The position numbers were made by a program, and so were the translations under genes. 43,143 bases of DNA from a bacterium (GTDB taxonomy: Bacteria > Patescibacteriota > Gracilibacteria > Absconditabacterales > Absconditicoccaceae): the NCBI GenBank assembly GCA_023245855.1, contig JAHFJL010000004.1, forward strand, positions 1 to 43,143, written 5' to 3'. Each line of letters starts with the position of its first letter. Position 1 is the stretch's first letter. Positions 14,176 through 42,308 of the stretch are shown in pieces. The notes under the pieces were generated by a model. The model searched no databases and was not told where the DNA came from. It saw nothing but the letters and a program-made list of their open reading frames with translations.

Positions 14176-14203
14176 TTGATTTTGTATTTTATAAATCTAT
14201 TAT
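14176..14203 (+). promoter_or_regulatory. Sigma-70 promoter of the pilin-like gene
   Basis: TTGATT (14176-14181), 16-base spacer, TATTAT (14198-14203), about 38 bases before the ATG at 14248, in the divergent gap between the PBP and pilin genes. Confidence 0.55.
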
Positions 14204-14247
14204 GTAACCGAATTAATCCTTTTAACTTGTTTAAAAAAACGAAAAAA

Positions 14248-14649
14248 ATGAAAAAATTATCTCTTAGATTGTTATCTTTATTCGCTCTCGGAATGTTTGT
14301 AACGGTTGGTACTGCAAGCGTGACTCCAGCTTTCGCTCAAGGATGATTTGGTACTGTAACAGATACAGCATGAATCGGAATCGCAGGAACAGGAACAGCT
14401 CAAGGTGGAAAATTAATTACTATAATCAAGAGTTTTATCAACTGGATGTTAGGAATATTATCATTGATTGCTCTCGTGATATTGCTTTATGGAGGATTCA
14501 GTATGGTTACTGCAGCTGGAGATGATGGAAAATACAAGAAAGGATTCAAAATCTTACAACAAGCAGCTGTTGGATTGATCTTTATCGGAGTATCATGGAT
14601 GATGGTGAGTGTTATATTCTATTTATTGACTCTTGTTGGAGTATCATAA
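14248..14649 (+). CDS. TrbC/VirB2-like pilin (T4SS_pilin type) membrane protein
   Basis: A 133-residue protein with a signal peptide (residues 1-31, cleavage probably after TPAFA) and two hydrophobic helices (about 68-88 and 108-128) separated by a short charged loop AAGDDGKYKKGFKILQQ. This two-helix, small-loop pattern after a signal peptide is that of TrbC/VirB2-like pilins, which are common as single genes in CPR genomes. Two TGA-Gly codons lie in the mature N-terminus. It has its own promoter and a strong terminator. No other type IV secretion gene is nearby, so a pilus or a general surface role is possible; exact function is unknown. Confidence 0.75.
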
Positions 14650-24661: not shown

Positions 24662-27127
24662 TTAGTCGGGTTTATCTTGCATTTCATAAAATTCCATGAT
24701 ATCTCAGATTTCTATTTTTTTTCCAGTTATGACTTTAAGTCCGCATTCATCACCTTCACCTACTTCTTTGATAATATCTTTATTTTTATGAAGAGAAACT
24801 ACATGACCGGTGCAAAGGATATCTTCGCCTCTCATAACCGTGAATTTAGGTTTCCCATGCAATTTACCGAAAATAACCCTACCTCAGATGGTCATATCTT
24901 TATTTTTAGTGAAGAAGATTCAGAGTACTTCGAGTTTAGCAAACATCACTTCATGCTGTTCTATCTCTACCATTCCCAACAACAATTTATTGAGATAATC
25001 AGTGAGTTCATAGATGATATCAAAATTTTTCATCTCTATCTTTAGAGAGTCAGCTTTCTTTTTTAAGAGAGCATTCATAGAGATATTGAATCCCAAAAGC
25101 AAAGCTCATGATGCTTGAGCAAGTCAAAGATCAGAATCAGAGAAGTGTCCTACGCTCGCTTGGATGACTTTCATAGTAACATTTTTTGGTAATTGTATTC
25201 CATTGACCGCTTGTTGGAGGGCTTCGAGACTGCTTGATCCATCAGATTTGAGGATAAGTTTAAGCTCTGCTCAAAACGCACCCGCTTGTACTTGAGATAC
25301 GAATTGTTTGACAATGGATTCTCCAGCATTTTTATTGACGTGTTCTTGGATGAGCGATATTTTTGCTTGTGCTTCTTTTTCATTTTTAACTACTTCGACG
25401 ATGCGTCCTGGATCCGGTAAATCAGTGATTCCGAGCACTTGTACAGGTTCTCATCATGCAGCTGAGGTTATGCTCTGCCCTTTTCGATTTTGCATTCTTC
25501 TGATTTTTCCTGTAGTATTGTAGGCAACAACGATATCTCATATTTTCAACGTTCAGGTCATGACAATCATCGTAGAAACGACACCTTGTTTAGGATCTTT
25601 GTGTGCATCAACAATAACTGCTACAGCTGATCTCTCAGGATTATATTTGAGATCAAGCATCTCTGCTTGGAGAAGGATAGCCTCAAGTAACTCAGGTATT
25701 CCTTGTCCTGTCTTTGAAGAGATTCCAATCATAGGAGTATCACCTCACCAATCTTCTGGAGTTAACCCATATTTAGCGAGATCTTGTTTAATCTGATCAA
25801 GCTTCTTTCCTGGTTTATCAATCTTAGTGATGGCAACAATGATAGGCACACCTGATTCTTTAGCGTGTCAGATAGATTCCACAGTTTGTGGCATCACACT
25901 ATCATCTGCAGCAACTACGATGACCGCTATATTAGTTAATTTAGCTCATCTTGCTCTCAAACTCGTAAACAATTCATGTCCTGGAGTATCGATAAAACAT
26001 ATTTTCTTTCCATTATGTTCTACTACAGAAGCTCAGATAGATTGAGTGATTCATCCTGCTTCACCTGCAGCAACAACAGTTTTTCTGAGGTAATCAAGCA
26101 ACGAAGTCTTCCCATGATCTACATGTCCCATAACCGTGACGATAGGTGATCTAGGAAGGAGATGCTCAGCGTCTTTATCCATATCAAGGATAGCTTGCAA
26201 GTCTCAACTCATAAATGTCTGTACCGTTACTTTATTTTCATTTCTTTTGACAGCGATATTGAATTCACTCGCGATAAGTGTCGCAGTATCGAAATCAAGT
26301 GAAGCGGTGATAGAAGTCATAATCTTATTTTGGATCAATTTTTTCATAAGTTCTGGCAACGGTATTCCCATTTTCTCAGAAAATTCTTTGACGGTTATTT
26401 TATCATCGATAGTGATTTCAGCTTTTTTGACAAGATTTGCAGAAGTAGCAGCTATTTTTTGTACCCTTGGTATAACAGGAGCTTGAGGTACAGCGGGTTT
26501 GTGAGGTTGAAATTGTGGTCTCTGTTGAAATCAGGGTTTACCTTGTGAAAATGATGGCTTATTGAATTGTGGTCTATGCTGCTGATCGCCTCTTAATGGC
26601 GGTCTGCTTGGTGCTGGTCTACTTACATTTGTTGTTGGTCATCAAGCAGATCTAAACGGTTTGGTTCATTGATATCCAGGTCTTGCAGGAGACGGTTTTC
26701 CTCCGTGTTGAGGAGCGGTATTTCTAGGTTTAGTAGCGAAAGAATCATCATTTCTTCAAACGATTTGCGGTTTGCTCTGTTCTACCGTATCAAAAGAAAA
26801 ATTAGCGCCACGTCTAGGTTTTTCAAGGACAATACTTTCTTTCTGTTCTTCTTCGATGCGTTTTTCCTCTTCTTTTTGTTTGACGGTTTTCACTTCCTTT
26901 TTAAATCCCAAACCAGACAAAAATCATCCTCATCCCCCCATAAGTTCATCAGCTTTGAGGACTTTAGCATTCGTATCTTTTTCTTTTGTAGGAGTTCAAT
27001 CTTTTATTTTAGGAATCTCTACTTCTTTTTTAGAAGTTTTAGAGGGTGCTTTAGATGCCTTATTTGTTGTGGTAGAAGTTTTTTTTTCTACTGATTTTGT
27101 TGTTGGTTTGACGGGAGTTTTTGACAT
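24662..27127 (-). CDS. infB: Translation initiation factor IF-2
   Basis: An 821-residue GTPase that places initiator tRNA on the 30S subunit. Residues 1-290 form a variable N-terminal part: Lys/Glu-rich, then low-complexity Pro/Arg/Gln/Phe/Asn ([20 protein letters not shown]-like). An IF2-N domain follows ([20 protein letters not shown]). The G domain has [11 protein letters not shown] (G1), DTPGHE (G3) and ITKID (G4). Domains II-IV end in FYEMQDKPD. Many conserved glycines are TGA, for example in GEAGGITQSIGA. ATG at 27127 is the first start after the repeat-bearing intergenic region. TAA at 24662. Confidence 0.96.
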
Positions 27128-27228: not shown

Positions 27229-27368
27229 AAAATTTGTTTATGAATTTTATTTTCTAAGTCAAAAATTTGTTTATGAATTTTATTTTCTAAGTCAAAAATT
27301 TGTTTATGAATTTTATTTTCTAAGTCAAAAATTTGTTTATGAATTTTATTTTCTAAGTCAAAAATTTG
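27229..27368. repeat. 33-base tandem repeat (4.3 copies)
   Basis: Units at 27229-27260 (one A short), 27261-27293, 27294-27326 and 27327-27359, then a 9-base partial copy. Copies are identical apart from the first base. The partial last copy runs into the -35 box of the promoter at 27366-27394. A 64-codon frame (27209-27403) would read FVYEFYFLSQK four times, but I do not take it as a gene. There are no spacers, so it is not a CRISPR array. Confidence 0.95.
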
Positions 27369-27394
27369 CAAAATTTACCATTTCCGAGTATAAT
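27366..27394 (+). promoter_or_regulatory. Promoter of the adhesin-like gene
   Basis: TTGCAA (27366-27371), 17-base spacer, TATAAT (27389-27394). The -35 hexamer begins inside the last partial repeat unit. Predicted start is about 10 bases before ATG 27411. Confidence 0.65.
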
Positions 27395-27410
27395 TACCCA
27401 TAATGAGTTA

Positions 27411-28706
27411 ATGACCGATTTAATCTTTAAGCTACATAAAATGTTCAGTGCTCACAAAGTATGATCAAATGATATCTCAATAAGGAATATGATCCTCTTG
27501 TTTTTGACGATTCTTTTTGGGTTTGTATCAGTGATAACTCTTGCTCAGATCAGTATTCCTTCTACGATAGATAATGCACGGCAAACTATAGGAAGAATAA
27601 CTATTACAAGTGATGGAACCGATAGCGGAAAAAAATTACGGGATTTTAATTATGATGGGAATGGAAAAGTATTTGTTGATCGATCAGGACTGCCTACCAC
27701 ACCAAGTTTTGCATGAAAAGTGCTTGGTATTGATAGTAAATGAGATTTGGTATATATAAATAGTACGGGGCTCGTAGTATCATGAGGTACTGCATGAGGT
27801 AGCGCTGATGATGATTGGACTGTAGTAGATTCAGTAGTAGGTACTGTCATGTATGCGCAGCCTGCAGGTAATGTAGGAATAGGCACTACAACGATGAATG
27901 GTAAATTACATGTAAGAAGCACAGGGCAGACAGAGTTATATCTAGAAGATAGTAGTGCATGAAGTGCAGCTAATATCAACCTAAAAAACACCGTAAATAA
28001 CTGGATGTTAGGATGATTTTCAGATAGATTTTATATTGGCAACAATAGTGTAGCATTTTTGAATGTTACGACATGAGGAAATGTAGGTATCGGAACTATA
28101 GATCCAAAAGCAAATTTACAAGTTGTAGGAAATATCATAGGAGGTGATTATAATAACAGCAGTACATGAATATTAGGATTTATCTGATGATGATTCGGGA
28201 ATCATATCAATTGAGATTATAATACTATCGTTTGATGATATAATAACAATATAAATATTGCACATAAATCATTTATTGGCTGATGAATAGCCAATCAAAT
28301 AACATGGTCATGGTATTCTGTCATTCCCTGATGATTTAATAATTTAATATCATCAGCTGATGATAGTTTTGCTTGATGAATAAATGCACAAGCGTTAAAC
28401 AATAATACATTCGTACGAAATAGTGAAGATACTATTTGATTTCAATCAAATCATGCAAAAACATTTATTGTTAATGCTCCTGGTGGGGTAGGAATACAAA
28501 CAAACAATCCATTTGCAGGTACATTAACAGTTTCTGGTAATGTTGTACTTGATCCTCAACCATTCCAAACGAACATTTGTACTATCAAATGAGCAGTATA
28601 TTATTATAACGGGTGATCCTCAGCTCCAGGAGGATACCTTTGTTATTGTGATTGAGCATATTGGAGACAAGTACAAAACAATGCTGCTTATTGTATCGCA
28701 TCATAA
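27411..28706 (+). CDS. Secreted adhesin-like protein with YadA-type head repeats
   Basis: A 431-residue surface protein. A hydrophobic segment at residues 27-46 (ILLFLTILFGFVSVITLA, in IRNMILL...TLAQ) acts as signal or anchor. Then come VGIGTT and VGIGTIDPKANLQV motifs, typical of phage-tail/adhesin stalk regions that precede head repeats. Next is a run of Gly-Gly/Asn repeats (GGGFGNHINGDYNTIVGGYNNN-like, FIGGGIANQI, PGGFNNLISS, AGGINAQAL), as in trimeric autotransporter heads. A Cys-containing tail closes it (GGYLCYCDGAYWRQ). About 25 glycines are TGA, often as TGATGA. Starts at 27441 or 27489 are possible. Role in attachment is an inference from family. Confidence 0.75.
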
Positions 28707-28923
28707 AAAAAATCTAATCAAAAAAGGTTTTATTGGGTAATACATAATAGTATTCAATGAAATACATAAAATCAAAATAATATATCTGATTTTGAATCAG
28801 TGAAATTTTTATCGTTTTTTCAAAGAGATATCCTCATCATTAGATTGACTTTTATCATCAAATGTTTATACTATTTTTACAAAAAAACAAAATAAATACA
28901 AACAATAAAAAAACAAAAAAAAC
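28707..28923. other. AT-rich gap between adhesin and T9SS-domain genes
   Basis: This 217-base gap holds a weak hairpin (CTGATT/AATCAG, 28786-28800) but no clear terminator for the adhesin gene. An A/C-rich leader lies before ATG 28924. No open frame of note or repeat is seen. Confidence 0.4.
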
Positions 28924-30465
28924 ATGAAAACAAAAAAAATTTTCATCTCTATGATGATCTTTATCGTATGCAATGTATCGAGATCATATGCTACAATTAC
29001 GCATATATATCTAGGTAACCTGAGTACTGTAGAATTCTATTATCTATGTGCAGGAGTGCATGATACCATTATCTTTCACAAACCAGCGATGGCAGTGAAT
29101 AACATAACATGGCTTACACCATCAAATACATGGATTTATGCACAAGATAGTGTGATTGCAACCTATGCTACACAAGGAGATTGGCTATTCAGTTCTAATG
29201 AAACAGGTAATGATTTTTATGTGTATTTTACTACTGCTCAACCTGTTAAACCTGCATGTATGGCACGTGATACTTCACTTCTTTGTACAGCATCCATAAA
29301 TTGGATACTAAATGCACAGAACACAGGTATATACGCAACATATCTTTGGGATAATGGAGTGGTAAGTAAAAACAGAACAGTTACGGCATTTGGTACCTAT
29401 TGGGTGACAATCAGTAATCCTTGTGGTACAAGAACAGATACCTTGCATATCAGAAAAATCAATCCCAATGCTCCGCATTTAGGAGCAGATCAAAGCTTAT
29501 GTTATGGAAACAATACCGTATTGACTACGGGAAGTACAAATGTGACCTCATATCAATGGTCAACAGGTGCCACAACACCAACAGTAATAGTCGATACTAC
29601 CGGAGCTTATTGGGTGTATGTCCAAAATACCAATGGTTGTGATGGTAGAGATACAGTAAATATCACTGTATTGTTGCCAATTACTGGATCTATCTGCTCT
29701 GTGGGATTTGATTCTGTATCGTTGAAGAACAATATCAATTGGCCAGGTAACCTACCTCCTAATGCTGATAGTGTTAAGATTTACAAGGAAACCTCTTTGA
29801 ATGTTTGGACATGTATCGGAACGGTATCAAAAACAGTAAATAATTTCATAGATGTAACTTCAAATCCACAAAATCAAAGTAATAATTACAAAATCACTGT
29901 AATTGATACTTGCGGTAATGAATCTGCCTTATCATCATATCATTCGACAATAGTATTGTCAGATATCTATGATGCAGGGACAAATACATATGATTTTACA
30001 TGGTCGCCCTACTATGGGGTTACCGTCAGTGATTATTATCTCTTTGGTATAGATGCTTCCAATACGGTTAGTCAAATCGCTTCCGTATCTGGGAATGTAT
30101 ATACCTACAATTATGCAAATCCCAATGCATCCTATGTTAAGTATTACATCGGATTTCAAGGCCCTAATTGCAATACATCAAATGCAATGGTCGAATCCAA
30201 TCGGGTAGATGCAGAATTGACTACGTATGTTCAGAAAGTTGAGGATATAAAATATGATGTATATCCGAATCCGGCTACTGATCAGATTATAATAACTATG
30301 GGTGCTTTTGATTTCAAAGTTGAAGTGCTTACAATGCTCGGACAGGTACTCCTTTCTGAACACAATGCAAAAACATTGGATGTAAGTGTATTAAACAAAG
30401 GCACGTATATTATGAGCATAACTGCTCATGGTGTACAGACCAACAAGGTTATTATCAAAAATTAA
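28924..30465 (+). CDS. Secreted protein with T9SS type A sorting domain, Bacteroidota-like
   Basis: A 513-residue protein with a signal peptide (residues 1-23, ending SRSYA), Ig-like/beta-sandwich regions (for example ALNIKI-free segment LGADQSLCYGNNTVL and YQWSTGATTPTVIVDTTG, the 'YxWSTGAT' pattern common in Bacteroidota surface proteins), and a C-terminal domain from about residue 441 (YDVYPNPATDQIII ... LTMLGQVL ... LNKGTYIMSI ... KVIIKN). This matches the type IX secretion sorting domain family. All 30 glycines are GGN and none is TGA, whereas the neighbouring adhesin uses about 25 TGA. Read in the standard code it is intact. This fits recent transfer from a Bacteroidota cell, or an assembly join. 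Confidence 0.85.
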   Translation: MKTKKIFISMMIFIVCNVSRSYATITHIYLGNLSTVEFYYLCAGVHDTIIFHKPAMAVNNITWLTPSNTWIYAQDSVIATYATQGDWLFSSNETGNDFYVYFTTAQPVKPACMARDTSLLCTASINWILNAQNTGIYATYLWDNGVVSKNRTVTAFGTYWVTISNPCGTRTDTLHIRKINPNAPHLGADQSLCYGNNTVLTTGSTNVTSYQWSTGATTPTVIVDTTGAYWVYVQNTNGCDGRDTVNITVLLPITGSICSVGFDSVSLKNNINWPGNLPPNADSVKIYKETSLNVWTCIGTVSKTVNNFIDVTSNPQNQSNNYKITVIDTCGNESALSSYHSTIVLSDIYDAGTNTYDFTWSPYYGVTVSDYYLFGIDASNTVSQIASVSGNVYTYNYANPNASYVKYYIGFQGPNCNTSNAMVESNRVDAELTTYVQKVEDIKYDVYPNPATDQIIITMGAFDFKVEVLTMLGQVLLSEHNAKTLDVSVLNKGTYIMSITAHGVQTNKVIIKN

Positions 30466-30472
30466 TGCTTGC

Positions 30473-30502
30473 CCTTTCCGGTTTTCCGGAAAGGTTTTTT
30501 TT
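30473..30502 (+). terminator. Intrinsic terminator of the T9SS-domain gene
   Basis: A perfect 9-bp stem CCTTTCCGG/CCGGAAAGG (30473-30481 with 30486-30494), TTTT loop, then T8. Confidence 0.9.
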
Positions 30503-30588: not shown

Positions 30589-31866
30589 ATGGAAAAAAAG
30601 GTAAAGAAATGAACACACGCTAACTACGAAATACAGTTTATATTGACTGCTAAAGAATATGAAGATGCAAAACTTATCATGCTCAAAGAATTTCAAAAGG
30701 ATTATGAAGCGCCAGGATTCAGAAAAGGGGCTGCACCGCTTGATATGGTAGAAAAAAACGTAAGACCGGAATATATTTCAATGGGGGCCTACGAAAAGCT
30801 CATCAGCAAAGGACTTCAAGAAATCATTAAAGAACAACCTAATCTTAAACTTATAGGAGAACCTTATGATCTCAAGCAAGAACAAAAAGATGGAAATACA
30901 ATCGTAGATCTTAAACTCGATATTTTTCCTGAAATAGAAGTTATCAATAACGACCGAGAAAAACAATCTGTAAGCCCTATCGACAACACTGCGACTGACG
31001 AAGAGATTGAAGGCACATTACTCAATATCCAAAAACAATATGCTGATTACAAAGACACGGATACCATCCAACTTGATACGATTTCAAAGGTCGCACTCGA
31101 ATATCTTGATAAAGAAGGGAAGGTGGTTCATACCGGACATACCTATATAGGTGAACAAGAGTTTGCGGAAAACCCATTTTTTCCGAAAACATTTGTAAAT
31201 AAGAAAAAAGATGATGTGATAGAACTTATTCACGATGAAAAGAAATTACCAGCAGTATTTCATAACAAGAAAAGTGATATTAAACCAGAAAAAATCAAAC
31301 TTACTATCAAAGATGTTAAAAAAATAGTACTTCCCGAGATGAATCCAGAGATGCTCAAAAAGCTTTTTGGGGATGATACCAAATTACAAAACCAAGATGA
31401 TCTCATAGCATATATCACGGAATCTATCGAGCACCAAAAATATGATCAGGAACTTATCAAAAAAATTGAAGGAGTATTGCAAACATTAAGAAATAAATCC
31501 ATGAAAGTGGAGATTCCTCAGACATTGATAAATGAAGAGTTGAAGACGAGAATCAAGAGTCTTGAAGAGAGATTAGGAGGTAAAGAGAAAATGGATGCAT
31601 ATTTCAAGAATATGTGAGACGAGAAAGCTAAAGCATTTTTTGAAGATATCACAAAAGCGGCTCAAGAAAGCTTAGAAAAATTCTTCATCCTACAAAAATT
31701 CACACAATTACTTAAACTGGATGTAGATTGGAATCAAACAGCGCATTTCGATGTGGAACAGAAAATCTACGATAAGCTCCTAAAAAAAGACGGTACAGAA
31801 AAGAAAACTAAAAATCCACATAATCATACTCATGATCACGATCATGATCATGGACATACTCACTAG
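30589..31866 (+). CDS. tig: Trigger factor with histidine-rich tail
   Basis: A 425-residue ribosome-associated chaperone. The ribosome-binding signature is seen as APGFRKGAAPLDMVEKNV (GFRxGxxP). A PPIase-like middle (about 150-240; IQLDTISKVALEYLDKEGKV) and a long helical C-terminal arm follow. Two TGA-Gly codons (30610 and 31615) frame an uninterrupted 324-codon stretch. The last 16 residues are HNHTHDHDHDHGHTH-like, a metal-binding type tail more familiar from SlyD and not usual for trigger factor. ATG at 30589 precedes EKKVKKGTHANYEIQFILT, which fits the family N-terminus. Confidence 0.9.
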
Positions 31867-41141: not shown

Positions 41142-42308
41142 ATGGTAATTCATGAAATCAATCCAGAATTTATTCCAGGAGCTAAAATAAAAGTATTGGG
41201 AGTAGGTGGATGTGGAAATAAGGCACTCAATAGAATGATCTCAGAAGGATTAGAAGGAGTAGGATTTGTTGCTATCAATACTGATGCACAAGATCTTGCA
41301 ACTAATTTAGCTGAAAAAAAGATAAATATCGGACTCAATCTTACAAAAGGGCTTGGTGCAGGCGCTAATCCTGAAATAGGAAGAAAAGCTGCTGAAGAAA
41401 GCGAAACAGAGATCAAAACCATGCTTCAGGATACCGACATGGTATTCATTACTTGCGGAATGGGAGGGGGAACTGGAACAGGTGCTGCTCCAGTTATCGC
41501 AAATATTGCAAGAGGGATGGGAATACTTACCGTGGGTATCATTACTAAACCATTCAGTTTTGAAGGAAATAGAAGAACAGGAAATGCTGAGGAAGGTGTC
41601 AAAAAAATCAAAGAAGCAGTAGACACGCTCATTGTTATCCCAAATGATAAAATTTTTAATGTAATAGACAAAAAAACGAGTTTCAAACAAGCGTTCACAA
41701 TGATAGACAAGATCTTATTTTTAGGAGTGCAAGGTATCTCTGATTTGATCATCAAACCAGGTGACATCAATATCGATTTTGCAGATGTGAAAGCGGTAAT
41801 GACAAACTCTGGAAATGCATTGCTAGGAATCGGATATGGAGCTGGAGAGAAGAGAGCAGTAGAAGCAGCTAGAAAAGCTATAGAAAATCCATTATTAGAA
41901 GAGAATTTAGATGGAGCAAAGAGCATTATATTCGCAGTTTCAGGTGGACATGATTTAACACCAGCTGAAGTAAGAGAAGCAGCAGCAGTAGTAGAAGAAA
42001 TCATAGATCCAGACGTAAATTTCTTCTGGTGAATGACTCTCGATGAAAGTATGGAAGACGAGATTAAAGTGACTATTATCGCTACAGGATTCGAAGAACA
42101 AAGCAAAGAAGCTATCCTTAAACAACCACAAAGAGATATTCTTGGAAGACCGACTATGCCTTCTATGAAAAGAGAATCAGAAAATTTTATTACAAGAGGA
42201 ATCAAAAAAGAGATCAAACCAGAAGCACAACATGAAATAGAAACACCAGCTGAAGACTTGGAAACACCAGCATTTATCAGAAGATCGCTCAATAAAAAAG
42301 CTAACTAA
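41142..42308 (+). CDS. ftsZ: Cell division protein FtsZ
   Basis: A 388-residue tubulin-like GTPase that forms the division ring. Seen: [40 protein letters not shown], the GTP-binding loop GGGTGTG at residues 108-114, [11 protein letters not shown], and the T7 region [22 protein letters not shown]. The last 15 residues hold the conserved tail TPAFIRRSL that FtsA and other partners bind. Only one TGA occurs (42030) among roughly 40 glycines, mostly GGA, showing that well-expressed genes here use TGA sparingly. No Shine-Dalgarno sequence is seen. Confidence 0.97.

Follow-up and report, generated by a model that had tools for sequence, protein, structure and literature searches.

In the SR1 genomes of the order Absconditabacterales, in which UGA is read as glycine, genes coding for cargo proteins of the type IX secretion system (T9SS) are purged of TGA while their glycine codons turn over freely. 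There is little doubt that these TGA-purged genes are old residents with start regions of the Bacteroidota type. Because translation in another cell best explains why a gene is kept for a long time with that cell's code, start signals and address label, we consider it on balance probable that they are kept readable by, and translated in, a standard-code Bacteroidota host. The gene from which the analysis started lies at 28924-30465 (+ strand) of the window, the whole 43,143-nucleotide stretch of contig JAHFJL010000004.1 (assembly GCA_023245855.1) that was analysed.

A T9SS-type cargo gene in the window

The open reading frame at 28924-30465 codes for 513 amino acids and has no internal stop under either the standard code or code 25, in agreement with the initial annotation, which had described it as readable in both. 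Domain searches confirm that the product is a T9SS-type cargo protein with a type A sorting domain. A putative Sec signal peptide at the N-terminus (MKTKKIFISMMIFIVCNVSRSYA, 28924-28992, +, cleavage near SYA|TI) is clear by eye in this protein and in its family. The sorting domain, also claimed from the start, lies at the extreme C-terminus (30259-30459, +) and is matched above the curated cut-offs by both TIGR04183 (aa 446-512, E=3.4e-10) and Por_Secre_tail PF18962 (aa 446-511, E=2.5e-11). The family profile (A3) matches solved T9SS sorting domains (8glk_D, E=5.6e-8; 8glj_D, E=5e-6), as well as Ig-like repeats from the grappling-hook protein of Aureispira (GhpA, PDB 9flp). The passenger is predicted to be all-beta, with a weak match to the Ig-like family PF19081 (aa 181-249, E=0.027; 29464-29670, +) and a structure model of low global confidence (pLDDT 68, pTM 0.41) that supports an all-beta fold only. 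Several ‘WSTGAT’ repeats had been proposed, of which one clear repeat stands. Export and processing by a T9SS would be predicted from the sorting domain. SprA, the T9SS component searched for, was detected in 0/49 genomes of the order and in 6/6 Bacteroidota positive controls, as anticipated in the initial annotation for this lineage; no use of the sorting domain is evident in an SR1 cell lacking a T9SS.

The gene is surrounded by conserved neighbours. On the left are infB (24662-27127, −; 24 TGA of 70 Gly) and a TGA-rich adhesin-like gene (27366-28706, +), in which the 25 TGA counted among 61 Gly agree with the approximate number given earlier. On the right is tig, coding for trigger factor (30589-31866, +; start taken from the L066 homologue). 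At most window-type loci (the window copy at 27366-28706, L058, L066, L063, L057, L074, L095 and L096), the adhesin-like family adjoins genes with a T9SS C-terminal sorting domain (T9SS-CTD genes), and its window copy contains NVGIGTxxxxGKLHV-type repeats.

Absence of TGA among glycine codons

The 30 glycine codons of the window gene are GGA (12), GGT (13), GGC (2) and GGG (3), with no TGA, as originally noted; TGA represents 236 of 853 Gly codons (28%) in the flanking genes, and the chance of 0/30 is P=6e-5. The single TGA of ftsZ (41142-42308), raised at the outset as a second case of avoidance, was also found.

TIGR04183 matches above cut-off were identified in 29/49 genomes of Absconditabacterales, including G001 (TGA-bearing) and G042 (TGA-free), each assembled as a single contig. 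Across 64 T9SS-CTD ORFs, 58 TGA are present among 3,091 Gly, versus about 1,010 expected from the local flanks. On SR1-like contigs, a count that leaves out two suspect contigs of G010 (C44 and C55), 53/62 ORFs have no TGA at all; for the 45 zero-TGA genes with well-measured flanks, around 734 would have been expected. In three of the nine TGA-bearing ORFs, no TGA precedes the end of the sorting domain. Internal TGA together with a native-like leader is seen in six CTD-bearing ORFs (L037, L081, L085, L089, L074:13493-14122 and L051), which may represent either a second, SR1-coded class or a chance resemblance. TGA-free genes make up 49/56 of the T9SS genes versus 17/260 of the other genes with at least 20 Gly (Fisher p=4e-35), and 12 of these 17 code for signal-peptide proteins beside T9SS genes.

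Conserved glycine columns, which are not independent when compared pairwise and therefore give effect sizes rather than probabilities, contain TGA in 0/281 cases in the window-type families and 0/1,343 in a family linked to rpsL (0/1,624 overall), while the codon differs in 168/281 and 878/1,343 respectively (60-65%); in core genes, TGA is present on at least one side in 341/739 columns (46%). The other synonymous codons of the T9SS genes are part-way ameliorated towards SR1 usage.

Outside the order, a class-wide search identified T9SS-CTD genes in 15/304 genomes, many on short contigs and some on long ones (for example in G320, G321, G326 and G327). Phage and viral collections and viral contigs gave no match to the T9SS genes and only weak matches to Bacteroidota plasmids were obtained, so a phage or plasmid origin was rejected.

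Translation and transcription signals

Native SR1 genes frequently harbor a TTTA[TCA] element around 20 nt before the start (163/238), found in only 1/46 T9SS genes (p=1e-18). Its presence in operon-internal genes (44/67) as well as in free-standing ones (119/171) indicates a translational rather than a promoter element. The leader of the window gene (28880-28923, +) lacks it near the start and is A-rich, of the Bacteroidota type. In the T9SS leaders as a whole, A peaks at −14 to −11, −6 and −3, with frequencies of 0.89 at −14, 0.77 at −13/−12 and 0.77 at −6, matching the positions at which A is enriched in Bacteroidetes and tunes translation in Flavobacterium johnsoniae (PMC6847099). The T9SS genes thus carry translation signals of the host type. 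The native element precedes the adjacent genes for TGA-rich secreted proteins, and the A-rich leader is therefore not a general trait of secreted proteins. Starts were called by simple rules, which should blur the contrast between native and T9SS genes rather than create it. Shine-Dalgarno sequences are nearly absent in both classes and were discarded as a discriminator. SR1 is listed among the lineages without CCUCC (PMC10783764). The 3' ends of SR1 16S rRNA genes (L173-L175) read GGGGATAGACCACCATTCT, without CCTCC, and their GATAGA could pair with UUUAUC/UCUAUC as a possible Shine-Dalgarno substitute.

In three genes, the first TGA coincides exactly with the end of the sorting domain: G012:C15 (..TKLIKL-TGA), G005:C8 (..KIIVK-TGA) and G048:C32 (..RQFVKR-TGA). 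Each of these stops is followed within about 20 nt by an intrinsic terminator hairpin, through which the frame would continue if read in code 25. No release factor RF2 was found above cut-off in the 49 genomes of the order, whereas 10 control genomes passed, and without RF2, translation of these genes in SR1 could not stop at the TGA. The three genes could be of young origin.

The transcription signals are of a different kind. A sigma70-type promoter, TTGACT-N16-TATACT, precedes the window gene (28845-28872, +) and is closely matched in five SR1 copies. Sigma70 boxes with at least 10/12 matches are present upstream of 48% of the T9SS genes; the figure is 26% for native genes and 12% for shuffled sequences. 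Promoters of the Bacteroidota type (TTTG/TAnnTTTG) are not enriched upstream of the T9SS genes and were rejected as candidates. The promoters therefore look SR1-like and transcription looks local. The transcript of the window gene would end at an intrinsic terminator (CCTTTCCGG-TTTT-CCGGAAAGG-T8, 30473-30502, +).

Age and descent of the T9SS genes

The order pth-infB-adhesin-T9SS-tig, continuing to uppS, is the same in G007 (L058) and G006 (L066), so that in three SR1 species the gene is flanked by the adhesin gene and by tig. In a fourth (G003, L063), the left half of this order is kept and a diverged homologue of about 31% identity occupies the same spot. Independent SR1 MAGs share the arrangement, among them one from Lac Pavin and one from Alinen sediment. 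Another T9SS locus, adjoining a gene of 348 aa, is common to G000 (L005), G007 (L095) and G006 (L074). In addition, a T9SS family of about 350-1050 aa is located directly upstream of rpsL in seven genomes of g1 and in g11, g21 and g22, four genera in all, with three of the copies ending at a contig edge (G009, G047 and G048). In four genomes of g1, the rpsL-linked gene ends a row of three genes for TGA-free secreted proteins. The identity of the rpsL-linked genes tracks that of S12 (rho 0.71, permutation p=0.001).

In the phylogenetic tree, the window protein and the G006 and G007 copies form an SR1-only clade (support 100/100), and a second SR1 clade is supported at 99/99. Both nest among Bacteroidales proteins, indicating that their ancestors came from Bacteroidales, probably through more than one import before these species of the genus split. 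The nearest relatives of the window protein are its SR1 orthologues (53-60% identity), and its full-length Bacteroidales relatives share 37-41% identity. Synonymous sites are near saturation, with pS of 0.66-0.76 for T9SS genes versus 0.59-0.69 for core genes. The genes are intact and their pN/pS (0.31-0.42) points to purifying selection. The recent transfer from Bacteroidota put forward in the initial annotation is thus retained for its source and discarded for its date, which the synteny in three species, the SR1-only clade and the core-like synonymous divergence contradict. It had also been proposed that an old resident gene would be recognized by TGA codons in its close homologues. The gene is indeed an old resident and, surprisingly, its old relatives are equally devoid of TGA.

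Alternative explanations

Repeated import from a host or prey, in some cases at favoured sites, would make every copy too young to have acquired TGA or SR1 start signals. This accounts at once for the missing TGA, the A-rich leaders, the TGA stops and the sorting domains, and it fits the Bacteroidales descent of the passenger families, with two SR1 clades within Bacteroidales and more than one import. A TGA-free pyrF-like gene pair with an A-rich leader within an SR1 contig (L096, 537-2176), probably a young import and useful as a contrast case, resembles what would be expected. However, the loci are the same across species and genera, the SR1-only clade is fully supported, and the rpsL-linked genes co-diverge with S12. 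Moreover, the copies share an SR1-type promoter and a partly SR1-like codon usage, a search of 393 genomes gave no Bacteroidales protein that corresponds over its full length to the 700-aa family, and the nearest Bacteroidales relative of the window protein has only 41% identity. Taken as a whole, repeated import appears rather unlikely. An assembly chimera or Bacteroidota contamination of the bins is far less credible and can practically be dismissed. Two contigs of G010, C44 (L091) and C55 (L094), are almost devoid of TGA throughout, likely reflect such contamination and were excluded from later counts, but the contig around the window gene is made up of TGA-rich SR1 genes, their arrangement is found again in independent MAGs, and single-contig genomes also carry T9SS-CTD genes. 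The chimeric join that had been envisaged at the window gene is contradicted by this shared gene order.

The genes could also be translated in SR1 itself as a special class, in which high expression or a scarce UGA-reading glycine tRNA would lead to the loss of TGA and to an A-rich leader, the proteins acting on the SR1 surface or being caught outside by the sortase of a host T9SS. The SR1-like promoters favor this explanation, a Sec signal peptide would function in SR1 too, and EF-Tu is sparing with TGA, having none in the matched part from G004. Nevertheless, highly expressed genes do use TGA, namely EF-Tu in most genomes (2-3 TGA in five genomes), GroEL (26/48) and S12 (1-7 of 11-12 Gly, with native start signals), and avoidance linked to expression level was rejected on these grounds. 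In addition, the neighbouring TGA-rich secreted proteins carry native signals, the three TGA-stop genes would lack a release factor, and the Bacteroidota sorting domain is left unexplained. We regard translation in SR1 as improbable.

Proposed expression in a Bacteroidota host

For translation in a Bacteroidota host, the following course of events may be envisaged. The genes would have reached SR1 from Bacteroidales long ago and been inherited vertically since, with selection maintaining a form readable in the standard code (no in-frame TGA, an A-rich start, sometimes a TGA stop, and the sorting domain). Transcription would take place in the SR1 cell, from its sigma70-type promoter, and the transcript or the DNA would be passed to the Bacteroidota host, the SR1-like promoter favoring a hand-over of the transcript. 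Host ribosomes would translate it, and the host Sec and T9SS would bring the Ig-like chain to the surface of the host. There it might serve as a ligand for the TGA-rich adhesins of SR1 or alter the host surface. The adjacent TGA-rich adhesin and its orthologues suggest, speculatively, a ligand-receptor pair. A putative conduit is provided by type IV secretion: T4SS_pilin (PF18895) is present in several copies per genome in 49/49 genomes of the order, including one in the window (14176-14649, +) that is not directly linked with the cargo gene. In Patescibacteria, T4SSs are homologues of conjugation machines, but most of them lack relaxases (PMC12102498). We infer host translation, the transfer of nucleic acid, its route and a function at the host surface from these sequence features. 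The complete scenario, in which SR1 transcribes the genes and delivers RNA (or DNA) to a host that makes the protein and displays it through its T9SS, for example as a self-supplied receptor for the adhesins, is tentative and falls somewhat short of an even chance.

Some observations count against translation in a host. Since the promoters are not of the Bacteroidota type, delivered DNA might go untranscribed, and at non-syntenic loci young transfers would look alike, being TGA-free and having donor leaders. The shortage of relaxases in patescibacterial T4SSs and the six CTD-bearing ORFs with internal TGA also count against it. Furthermore, both cultivated Absconditabacteria are known as predators of Gammaproteobacteria. 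In favor of a Bacteroidota host, a co-occurrence of Absconditabacteria and Bacteroidetes has been reported, and the hosts of Absconditabacteria are largely unknown (PMC8406219). In the library searched, no paper links Gracilibacteria to type IX secretion or Absconditabacteria to T9SS.

Significance and comparison with known systems

If this is correct, one bacterium would be keeping genes that are meant to be translated by another, whose genetic code differs from its own. The combination of no TGA, an A-rich leader and a T9SS domain would predict which uncultured SR1 live on Bacteroidota, making the question of their hosts directly testable, and could be used to compile the genes directed at a host in any lineage with UGA=Gly.

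Phages of Gracilibacteria and Absconditabacteria without in-frame TGA, compatible with code 11, have been described and a wider host range was proposed for them (PMC10746230). The SR1 T9SS genes are similarly free of in-frame TGA and readable in both codes, but unlike these phages they are chromosomal, vertically inherited and located beside TGA-rich genes, and they combine exchanged translation signals with a sorting domain specific to the host. The T-DNA of Agrobacterium is a known case of genes that one organism carries and whose expression signals are those of its host. The SR1 T9SS genes likewise bear the translation signals of the putative host, whereas here both partners would be bacteria, the promoter is donor-like and the transfer is putative. 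The window protein resembles type A T9SS cargo of Bacteroidota in its apparent signal peptide, Ig-like passenger and extreme C-terminal sorting domain, while its gene differs in residing at a stable locus of an SR1 lineage without SprA and behind an SR1-like promoter. Finally, it shares related Ig-like repeats with the Bacteroidota surface adhesin GhpA of Aureispira (PDB 9flp), although GhpA is a structural fibre of 5,898 aa and the window protein has 513 aa.
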